Source: Methanoplanus endosymbiosus
GTDB lineage: Archaea > Halobacteriota > Methanomicrobia > Methanomicrobiales > Methanomicrobiaceae
Direction: 5' to 3'
DNA length: 64,000 bases
NCBI RefSeq assembly: GCF_024662215.1
Contig: NZ_CP096115.1
Coordinates: forward strand, 1,984,001-2,048,000
Part shown: positions 48,544-51,098 of the stretch, piece after piece
How positions within the stretch are numbered: the first letter of the stretch is position 1
Layout of the letters: each line of letters begins with the position of its first letter
Translations under genes and position numbers: made by a program
The notes under the pieces: model-generated
What the model was told of the DNA's origin: nothing
Seen by the model: only the letters and a program-made list of their open reading frames with translations
Databases searched by the model: none

Positions 48544-48721
48544 GGTTATCTGTATGAAAGAAGATTGTGGGTTATCTGTATGATAGAGGATTGCAGGGTA
48601 TGTGGATGATTGTGGGGGTCTGTACATGATGGAAGATGCGGTTGTTGGTACGGCTGATACTGACATTAGTGATTGGGTGGAAAAAATGATAAGGTGGGAT
48701 AACGGCACTGAAAATATGTGA
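48544..48721 (+). repeat. 26-bp tandem repeat carrying a chain of overlapping micro-ORFs
   Basis: Two near-identical 26-base units (48544-48569 and 48570-48595) are followed by two degenerate units. Each contains ATG. The frames ATG 48554-48583 (9 codons), 48580-48609 (9), 48606-48629 (7) and 48626-48721 (31) each start inside the stop of the one before (ATGA overlaps). The last ends 13 bases inside the proposed ogg start. Function, if any, could be translational coupling into ogg. Confidence 0.6.
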
Positions 48722-49727
48722 ACTGGATTATAACCAGCCGTTTAATCTTGATGATACGTTATCGTGCGGGCAGGTATTCCGGTGGGAGAAGAGAAGTTCC
48801 GGATGGTTCGGCGTTGCATGGGGAAAAGCTCTTCATGTCAGGCAGATAAAGGGTGGCCGGATTCTTGAGTATTCCGGCTGCAACGAACAGTTCCTCAGGG
48901 ATTACTTTCAGCTTGATTTGAATCTTGACCGGATTCTTGACTCTGTTAACAAAGATGAGCATATCGGGTCGGCAATCTCTGAAAAATACGGTTTAAGGTT
49001 AGTGTCACAAAATCCCTGGGAGTGTCTGATCACATACTCCTGTGCCCAGAATGCCAATATTCCGTTTATCAGCCGGATGCTTGCGAACCTCTCTTCAGTG
49101 TACGGAAAGCCGCTTGTCTTTGATGAGGATCTGATAAGCAGAGAAAATCCTGATACTGGTTCTGACGCTGTTGCTGGTGCTGAAGTGAGTTCTGTTCCGG
49201 ATGATAGGATGGATGGGGGACATACCTGTGCTGATACTGCTTCTGACACTGATGTTGATACTGGTGCTGCCTCAGATAGTGGTTCTGTTGCCGGCAGTTC
49301 CTTCTCCTTCTTCTCATATCCGTCTGCAAAGGCCCTTTCACTGAGCTGTGCGGCTGATGTTTCAGAATGCTCTACCGGATACCGTTCAGCTAATATCTGT
49401 GATACTGCCGGAAGGGTGACGGAGAATCCCGGATGGGCGGATGAAATAGCCGAACTTGGTTACGAGCAGGCAAGAGGGAAGATTATGGAGTTTAAGGGTG
49501 TTGGCCCAAAGGTTGCCGACTGCATTCTTTTGTTTGCCTTTCAGAAGTTTGAGTCGTTTCCGGTTGACGTCTGGATGAGGAGGATTATGTCTGAGTTTTA
49601 TGACGTTGGCAATCCTAAAGCAACGCTCTCGGCGTATGAATACGACAGAATCCGGAGGTTTGCGAAGGATTACTTTGGAGACTATGCCGGTTATGCCCAG
49701 GAGTATTTGTTTGCTAACCGTGGGTGA
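48708..49727 (+). CDS. ogg: 8-oxoguanine DNA glycosylase (OGG1 type), CTG start
   Basis: A 339-residue glycosylase/lyase removing 8-oxoguanine. N-terminal OGG domain has 'LSCGQVFRWEK'; the HhH-GPD core has FKGVGPKVADC (catalytic Lys) and PVDVW (catalytic Asp). The reading frame has no ATG, GTG or TTG between the stop at 48690 and base 48918, yet homology begins at about 48711. CTG 48708, nine bases after AAGGTGGG, is the best start. A TTG at 48918 would remove 70 conserved residues. Residues about 147-200 are a Ser/Asp/Ala-rich insert absent from typical enzymes. The 3' 372 bases are duplicated at 50399-50771. Confidence 0.85.
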   Translation: MKICELDYNQPFNLDDTLSCGQVFRWEKRSSGWFGVAWGKALHVRQIKGGRILEYSGCNEQFLRDYFQLDLNLDRILDSVNKDEHIGSAISEKYGLRLVSQNPWECLITYSCAQNANIPFISRMLANLSSVYGKPLVFDEDLISRENPDTGSDAVAGAEVSSVPDDRMDGGHTCADTASDTDVDTGAASDSGSVAGSSFSFFSYPSAKALSLSCAADVSECSTGYRSANICDTAGRVTENPGWADEIAELGYEQARGKIMEFKGVGPKVADCILLFAFQKFESFPVDVWMRRIMSEFYDVGNPKATLSAYEYDRIRRFAKDYFGDYAGYAQEYLFANRG

Positions 49728-49728
49728 T
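49356..49728 (+). repeat. Long direct repeat, copy 1 (3' part of ogg)
   Basis: 373 bases, colinear with 50399-50771 without indels. By eye about 15 differences (about 96% identity). The left edge is the shared GATGTTTCAG and the right edge is one base after the stop codon. Confidence 0.92.
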
Positions 49729-49842
49729 CTGAATGTCTGGATGTCCGGATGCCAATTACCTTCAGCAGAATAATTAATACATTGGGTTACTAATTTAATC
49801 TTGGAAGAATTTGTTTTCACTCAAAGAAGATAGGAATGTGCT

Positions 49843-50055
49843 ATGAAATTTCAGGTAATTATCAGGGAAGACCCTGAAGATGGTGGATATAATGTCAGTT
49901 GTCCTGCTATTCAGGGATGTCATTCTCAGGGAGAAACAGTTGATGAGGCACTTGAAAATATAAAAGATGCGATAAATGGCTGTATTGAAGTACTCAATGA
50001 GGATACTCTTCAGAACGGGAACTCAGGCTCACGTGTTATGGAAGTGTCTCTCTGA
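49843..50055 (+). CDS. hicB: HicB-like antitoxin
   Basis: A 70-residue HicB-type partial RNase H-fold protein: 'FQVIIREDPEDGGYNVSCPAIQGCHSQGETVDEALENIKDAI' is the family core. There is no HTH or ribbon-helix-helix tail, so the protein is at the short end of the family. It is expected to bind and neutralise the adjacent HicA mRNA interferase. Order is hicB then hicA, with the hicA CTG overlapping the hicB stop. The pair lies between the two ogg direct repeats, which suggests acquisition. Confidence 0.88.
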   Translation: MKFQVIIREDPEDGGYNVSCPAIQGCHSQGETVDEALENIKDAINGCIEVLNEDTLQNGNSGSRVMEVSL

Positions 50056-50279
50056 AGAAACCTAGCCTTCCGGTAATTTCCGGTCATGATGCAGTAAAGG
50101 CTTTTTCAAAAGCAGGCTGGGTTGTACGCAGGCAGACCGGAAACCATGTCATTATGAAAAGAGAAGGTATGCCACTTATTCTCTCTGTTCCATTGCATAG
50201 TGAGATGAAACGTGGTACTCTTCGTGATTTGATCTCTGATTCTGGAATGACTACTGATGAATTTGTAAATTATCTCTGA
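50052..50279 (+). CDS. hicA: HicA-like mRNA interferase toxin, apparent CTG start
   Basis: A 75-residue HicA-type double-stranded-RNA-binding-fold toxin. 'PVISGHDAVKAFSKAGWVVRRQTGNHVIMKR' holds the catalytic His in the G-N/S-H motif, followed by 'SVPLHSEMKRGTLRDLISDSGMTTDEFV'. No ATG/GTG/TTG exists at the family N-terminus; the first in-frame ATG lies past the catalytic His. CTG 50052 overlaps the hicB TGA (CTGA), mirroring ATGA couplings. Weak initiation would keep toxin below antitoxin. Confidence 0.82.
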   Translation: MKKPSLPVISGHDAVKAFSKAGWVVRRQTGNHVIMKREGMPLILSVPLHSEMKRGTLRDLISDSGMTTDEFVNYL

Positions 50280-50398
50280 TATTTTAATGTCTCTACTATG
50301 CTGAGATAATTTCTGTATAGTTACGTCTGCAAAGATTCTCTTATTTAATCACCTCATTCCTGCATTATATCCTCTGCTCAATATCTCATTATATTGAG

Positions 50399-50770
50399 GA
50401 TGTTTCAGAATGTTCTACGGGCTACCGTTCAGCTAATATCTGTGATACTGCCGGAAGAGTGGTGAATAATCCCGGATGGGCGGATGAAATAGCCGAACTT
50501 GGTTACGAGCAGGCAAGAGGGAAGATTATGGAGTTTAAGGGTGTTGGCCCAAAGGTTGCCGACTGCATTCTTCTCTTTGCTTTTCAGAAGTTTGAGTCGT
50601 TTCCGGTTGATGTCTGGATGAGTAGGATTATGTCTGAGTTTTATGACGTTGGTAATCCTAAAGCAACGCTCTCGGCGTATGAGTACGACAGAATCCGGAG
50701 GTTTGCGAAGGATTACTTTGGAGACTATGCCGGTTATGCCCAGGAGTATTTGTTTGCTAACCGTGGGTGA
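50399..50770 (+). pseudogene. Truncated second copy of ogg (HhH-GPD half only)
   Basis: The frame encodes the C-terminal 123 residues of OGG, including the HhH with catalytic Lys and PVDVW Asp. The N-terminal DNA-binding domain is missing. The first standard start in frame is GTG 50459, which would give 103 residues. The frame is intact to its normal stop, and the changes from copy 1 are mainly synonymous, so it may be recent, be converted by copy 1, or be expressed. It is called a pseudogene because a partial glycosylase domain is unlikely to fold alone. Confidence 0.7.
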
Positions 50771-50771
50771 T
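50399..50771 (+). repeat. Long direct repeat, copy 2
   Basis: Second copy of the ogg 3' end (see 49356-49728). Differences from copy 1 are mostly silent: of 12 changed codons, 9 keep the amino acid and 3 alter it (Thr to Val, Glu to Asn, Arg to Ser). Confidence 0.92.
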
Positions 50772-50813
50772 GCCAGCTATCTCTGATTCGGTGTAGAGCT
50801 TCAGATTGGGTTT

Positions 50814-51098
50814 GTGATGACTGATAATGCAGATAAAAAGAAATCCCTGAAGGATTTCCGGAGAATTCCTGGAGTGGGCCCTTCCATTGCAGAGGACCTC
50901 TATGGTCTGGGCTACAGAAGCGTCAGTGATCTCACTGGCGAAATCCCGGAAGATATGTATGAAAAACTCTGCATGATGCAGGGGCAGACAGTAGATCGCT
51001 GCATGCTCTATGTCTTCAGGTGTGCCGTATATTTTGCCAGAACTCCGGAATCTGATTATGACCCGGAACTTCTGAAGTGGTGGTCATGGAAGGACTGA
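50814..51098 (+). CDS. Helix-hairpin-helix protein (Cdd1/'pathogenicity locus' family)
   Basis: A 94-residue protein with an HhH near the N-terminus ('LKDFRRIPGVGPSIAEDLYGLGYRSVSDLTG') and a conserved tail 'CMLYVFRCAVYFARTPESDYDPELLKWWSWKD'. This matches the small Cdd1-like family, whose role is unknown but probably DNA-related. The gene starts 43 bases after the duplicated ogg end; before the duplication it may have lain directly after ogg. ATG 50814 or the next codon can start it (TTGTG ATG ATG-type context). Confidence 0.85.
   Translation: MMTDNADKKKSLKDFRRIPGVGPSIAEDLYGLGYRSVSDLTGEIPEDMYEKLCMMQGQTVDRCMLYVFRCAVYFARTPESDYDPELLKWWSWKD

Follow-up and report, generated by a model that had tools for sequence, protein, structure and literature searches.

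The window of our analysis, i. e. the whole stretch of 64 kb that was examined, corresponds to positions 1,984,001 to 2,048,000 of the 3.16-Mb single-contig genome of Methanoplanus endosymbiosus. It contains an intact ogg gene for an 8-oxoguanine DNA glycosylase (48708-49727 of the window, on the plus strand like the other genes and the repeat copies of this locus; Pfam OGG_N, E = 5.8e-20), and a homologue of this gene is present in 59 of 60 relatives. The likely start codon is the CTG at 48708: no ATG, GTG or TTG lies in frame upstream of the OGG_N domain, and M. limicola, the sole other Methanoplanus genome in the comparison, has an ATG at this place. Between the two halves of ogg, at 49150-49290, there is a low-complexity stretch of imperfect, CTGATACTGGTT-like periodic repeats of 12 nt, and the ogg gene of the congener carries a different low-complexity stretch at the matching place. 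The last 373 nt of ogg (copy 1, 49356-49728) are found again at 50399-50771 (copy 2). The initial annotation had claimed that this end recurs without indels 1043 bases downstream, and the alignment agrees exactly: the copies are gapless at an offset of 1043 nt and share 358 identical positions (15 differences, 96.0% identity). The right end of the repeat lies one base beyond the ogg stop codon (TGA, 49725-49727), and copy 2 represents only a 3' fragment of ogg, in which the N-terminal domain is missing. No other direct repeat that reaches 60 bp at a spacing of up to 6 kb is present in the whole window, and a chance origin can therefore be excluded. Copy 2 is followed after 43 nt by a helix-hairpin-helix (HhH)/Cdd1 gene (50814-51098; PF11731, E = 2.4e-31).

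The 670 nt between the copies (49729-50398) hold one hicB and one hicA gene, as had been proposed, and no further recognisable gene was found in this interval. The hicB gene (49843-50055; PF15919, E = 5.9e-10) encodes an antitoxin of 70 amino acids of the short form, in which no DNA-binding domain was detected; a relative in Methanocalculus chunghsingensis is 76% identical. The predicted toxin gene hicA (about 50052-50279; 75 amino acids) matches PF07927 over 54 residues (E = 8.6e-16) and PDB entry 1whz (E = 1.2e-4), and the histidine of the G[S/N]H motif is present. The locus combines a gene for a protein of the HicA fold with an adjacent hicB in one operon, as expected of a HicBA module. As judged from the sequence, the toxin may be translated from the CTG at 50052, the best start of the hicA frame, which overlaps the hicB stop codon as CTGA: there is no ATG, GTG or TTG start for this frame in the overlap with hicB, and the CTGA overlap is conserved in the Methanocalculus and Methanocorpusculaceae relatives (loci L100-L102). 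At the downstream end of the insert, a perfect 8-bp inverted repeat with a loop of 6 nt (CTCAATAT-ctcatt-ATATTGAG, 50377-50398; fold z = -3.2) stops exactly where copy 2 begins. The ends of the insert have no further copies in the genome, neither a transposase nor flanking insertion sequences were found between 49356 and 50771, and a search of the genome for dispersed copies of the 670-nt insert gave only hicB-like matches. Among viruses and plasmids, searches for a carrier of this hicBA pair returned one weak viral match and, on plasmids, only distant HicB proteins.

The comparison with related genomes gives the direction of the change. In M. limicola, a single ogg 3' end runs straight into the HhH/Cdd1 gene and hicBA is absent. 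This is the result that the initial annotation had expected for an insertion with duplication, and the states that would contradict it, i. e. the duplication without hicBA or hicBA without the duplication, were not found at the ogg locus of any relative. Six outgroup loci from other species of the family also have one ogg and Cdd1 with no hicBA between them, the gap between the two genes being longer in most of them. The 1043-bp event is therefore a derived feature of the window's lineage. In the ancestral state ogg preceded Cdd1; in the derived state the intact ogg is followed by hicBA, the 3' fragment of ogg and Cdd1, and the change consists of a 670-nt insertion and a 373-nt duplication. 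In the alignment with the congener, copy 1 is collinear with the ancestral DNA to the left and copy 2 with that to the right; only copy 2 continues into the ancestral downstream DNA, including the 43 nt before Cdd1, which are unchanged. Since copy 1 is joined to the ancestral upstream sequence and copy 2 to the ancestral downstream sequence, the ogg gene need never have been broken. The target is thus single-copy and uninterrupted in the relative, and the insert is bounded by long, locus-specific repeats, the features by which a long target duplication is recognized. In M. limicola, a different and broken hicBA remnant is located just behind a deaminase gene (L060, 1462-1887), and the empty site at ogg is about 1 kb away. 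The window contains different DNA at the position of this remnant; the neighbourhood of ogg seems to attract toxin-antitoxin modules.

Ten of the 15 differences between the two copies are silent, and the remaining five, located in three codons, change residues (T to V, E to N and R to S). The earlier statements that the differences are mostly silent and that the duplication is not brand new both stand: dS between the copies is 0.125, as compared to about 0.9 between the two species (NG86). This value, far below that of the species pair, places the insertion after the species split, unless gene conversion has reset the copies. When the changes are polarized with the congener, copy 1 has five private changes, all of them silent, and copy 2 has eight, of which four change amino acids; two further sites could not be assigned to either copy. 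Although the numbers are small, this pattern fits a working gene (copy 1) and a fragment under relaxed constraint (copy 2).

The layout is not confined to ogg. We regarded a locus as flanked if, within 1.5 kb on each side, it was enclosed by direct repeats with a minimum length of 80 bp and a minimum identity of 75%. In the two Methanoplanus genomes, this was the case for eight of 38 HicA loci (the locus of the window excluded) and for eight of 28 VapC (PIN) loci, as compared to none of 29 acetyltransferase (GNAT) genes (Fisher P = 0.0016 for toxin-antitoxin versus GNAT loci); when targets were drawn at random from 40 stretches at even spacing, 2.8% and 0.9% were flanked. Against other positions in the same loci, the excess for the Methanoplanus HicA genes is modest (7/36 versus 2.5 expected, P = 0.002; P about 0.03-0.04 at stricter settings). 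Outside Methanoplanus, in archaea and bacteria, five of 42 hicBA loci (found by their HicB) are flanked, two of them being related Chlorobiaceae loci, versus 0.40 expected in the same loci (P < 5e-5). The layout thus recurs in the genus with other toxin-antitoxin operons and other genes, above expectation. Its usual anatomy is an intact host gene followed by one toxin-antitoxin operon and then by a 3' fragment of the host gene; at most other closely spaced loci the insert measures about 530-900 nt, and in the ogg, LysE, L270 and GNAT cases the boundary of the repeat on the side of the operon lies 1-3 nt beyond the host stop codon. The repeats are 95-660 nt long, and the target differs at each locus. 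Repeats from different loci bear no resemblance to each other, as expected of target duplications rather than of element ends; shared element ends were rejected for this reason. The Chlorobiaceae recC-like case is a mirror image, with a 5' fragment upstream of the intact gene: at L152 and L153, hicBA lies between this fragment and the start of the recC-like gene. At L152 a HigBA-like pair is found beside hicBA, and at L148 and L150 hicBA is located upstream of recC and the full repeat is absent. The initial annotation had suggested that this layout, for a toxin-antitoxin pair inside a DNA-repair gene, would be a distinctive mode of insertion; a role in DNA repair does not set the target apart, as LysE-type, fae-hps-type and other genes share the layout.

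Two further cases are clean as well. In both Methanoplanus species, a gene for a LysE-type transporter is followed by vapBC and then by a copy of the part encoding LysE residues 97-207; nine outgroup loci have the single gene and no vapC nearby. Similarly, a fae-hps-type gene is followed in both species by hicBA and then by the last 63 codons of the gene, and nine outgroup loci contain one gene and no hicBA nearby. Both insertions are older than the species split, and their repeats, although 8-16% diverged, have still not collapsed. In M. limicola, amplification has spread the unit of fae-hps gene, hicBA and fragment across 22 kb as several copies, full or partial (G001:C1:643449-665064; loci L333, L205 and L343); one of the amplified copies, L333, has kept the 3' fragment and lacks hicBA.

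Other flanked loci have mixed origins. L182 is best read as a unit with hicBA inside it that was later duplicated in tandem, and L180 may well have arisen in the same way, by tandem duplication of a module already present. In the case of L196b and L201, what the sister species retains of hicBA is a remnant with a broken hicA and a rearranged left side, and the duplication is absent there. After comparison with the sister genome, these four loci were rejected as clean insertions. In some of the flanked cases, such as L276, the repeats are the toxin-antitoxin genes themselves. Because of L182, L180, L196b and L201, the excess of repeats around toxin-antitoxin operons does not prove that each repeat arose at insertion. 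The excess may also reflect selective retention, as recombination between the repeats deletes the operon.

How did the hicBA pair come to lie between two ends of ogg? We consider it probable, though by no means certain, that the module was inserted with a long target duplication, without a transposase and with the host gene spared, and that it was possibly retained by addiction. A hicBA operon on its own, with flanks of about 115 nt per side, would have entered the junction of ogg and Cdd1, and a second copy of the 373 nt at the end of ogg would have arisen in the same single event. The join may have been made when a broken replication fork or a double-strand break was repaired, with the fragment carrying the toxin-antitoxin genes being captured at the junction of a tandem duplication between sister chromatids. 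Such an insertion would survive selection since the target gene stays whole, and the repeats might then persist because a cell in which the copies recombined would lose the antitoxin gene and have to face residual HicA.

Three other histories can be weighed against this proposal. The ogg 3' end, or ogg together with hicBA, might have been duplicated in tandem in a step separate from the insertion or loss of the module, with a later rearrangement. Tandem duplication does account for L182 and probably for L180, and TGATG is present at both ends of the target (49355-49359 and 50768-50772), so that a 370-bp duplication by microhomology followed by an insertion at its junction with a 3-bp duplication of GAT is formally possible. 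However, the insert sits exactly at the junction of the copies, for which the chance of an independent second insertion is roughly 1%, copy 2 continues directly in unchanged ancestral DNA, and none of the relatives has only the duplication at ogg. We regard two separate steps as unlikely. Alternatively, DNA of another strain, carrying an ogg 3' end next to hicBA, might have been anchored by its ogg homology, either as a linear fragment whose far end was joined illegitimately or as a 1043-bp circle that was integrated by a single crossover. Such a circle would yield an identical arrangement, and the 4% difference between the copies is in keeping with this route. But neither copy has an excess of foreign-looking changes, as they are equally distant from the congener (53 and 56 of 373 positions), and among the 60 relatives no donor was found in which ogg directly precedes this hicBA pair; we judge this route to be distinctly unlikely.

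Integrative elements that use the 3' end of a gene keep the gene whole and leave the displaced 3' fragment at their far end. The ogg locus might accordingly be the remnant of such an element that had attached at the 3' end of ogg and made the gene whole again with a copy of its own; the integrase and the body would have been lost later, with the toxin-antitoxin pair left behind. The duplicated 3' end, the whole gene and the end of the repeat at the stop codon are the usual layout of site-specific integration. Yet the 670-nt insert contains neither an integrase nor any other element gene; instead, here and at most other closely spaced loci, it is just one toxin-antitoxin operon. A short attachment core is absent, the block of identity being 373 nt, and repeats of the lengths found across the loci, at a different target each time, are unlike the short attachment sites of such elements. 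This origin appears highly improbable.

Insertion with a long target duplication, the reading that we prefer, has a precedent in restriction-modification systems, for which long and variable target duplications upon insertion are described in PMC3874152 and PMC3031569, which cite Nobusato et al. 2000 and Furuta et al. 2010. In both cases a small addictive module without a transposase is bounded by a long locus-specific target duplication, a related genome has the empty site, and the flanking homology could allow amplification or loss. In contrast to those insertions, the module is a HicBA or VapBC operon in an archaeal host and the insert contains no restriction-modification unit; moreover, the host gene remains whole, its 3' end being the duplicated target, and several genes are affected. 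The HicAB family is known as a two-gene operon of a small toxin of the mRNA interferase type and a HicB antitoxin with a patchy, mobile distribution (PMC2701414). The pair at ogg differs from this description by its short HicB, in which no DNA-binding domain was detected, and by the probable CTG start of HicA, and the mode of insertion looks new. A partial likeness is provided by Microcystis, where a ParDE-like pair lies between two 152-bp direct repeats behind MaOC1; according to the section of PMC7935541 on this locus, those repeats are located outside the neighbouring gene, contain an inverted repeat and do not duplicate the end of a host gene, and that section describes no empty site. Our literature text searches, with many journals outside their coverage, returned no paper in which a HicBA or VapBC pair is enclosed by duplicated ends of a host gene. 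Long target duplication is thus known for restriction-modification genes; its extension to toxin-antitoxin modules and its recurrence look new.

Toxin-antitoxin operons move often between genomes, usually without a transposase or recognisable ends, and how they enter chromosomes is unsettled. Here, several insertions share a fixed layout, the corresponding sites are empty in relatives, and the excess over controls can be measured. Two questions can now be tested directly: do addictive modules and restriction-modification genes insert by a common route, and are direct repeats that would otherwise be unstable preserved by addiction? It is conceivable, though we advance this idea only tentatively, that toxin-antitoxin modules as a class insert in a gene-sparing manner and then act as locks against the collapse of the repeats, and that they would thereby preserve duplicated gene ends over long periods and seed amplification. 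Our data suggest that toxin-antitoxin modules have a gene-sparing route by which they enter, and stay in, chromosomes.
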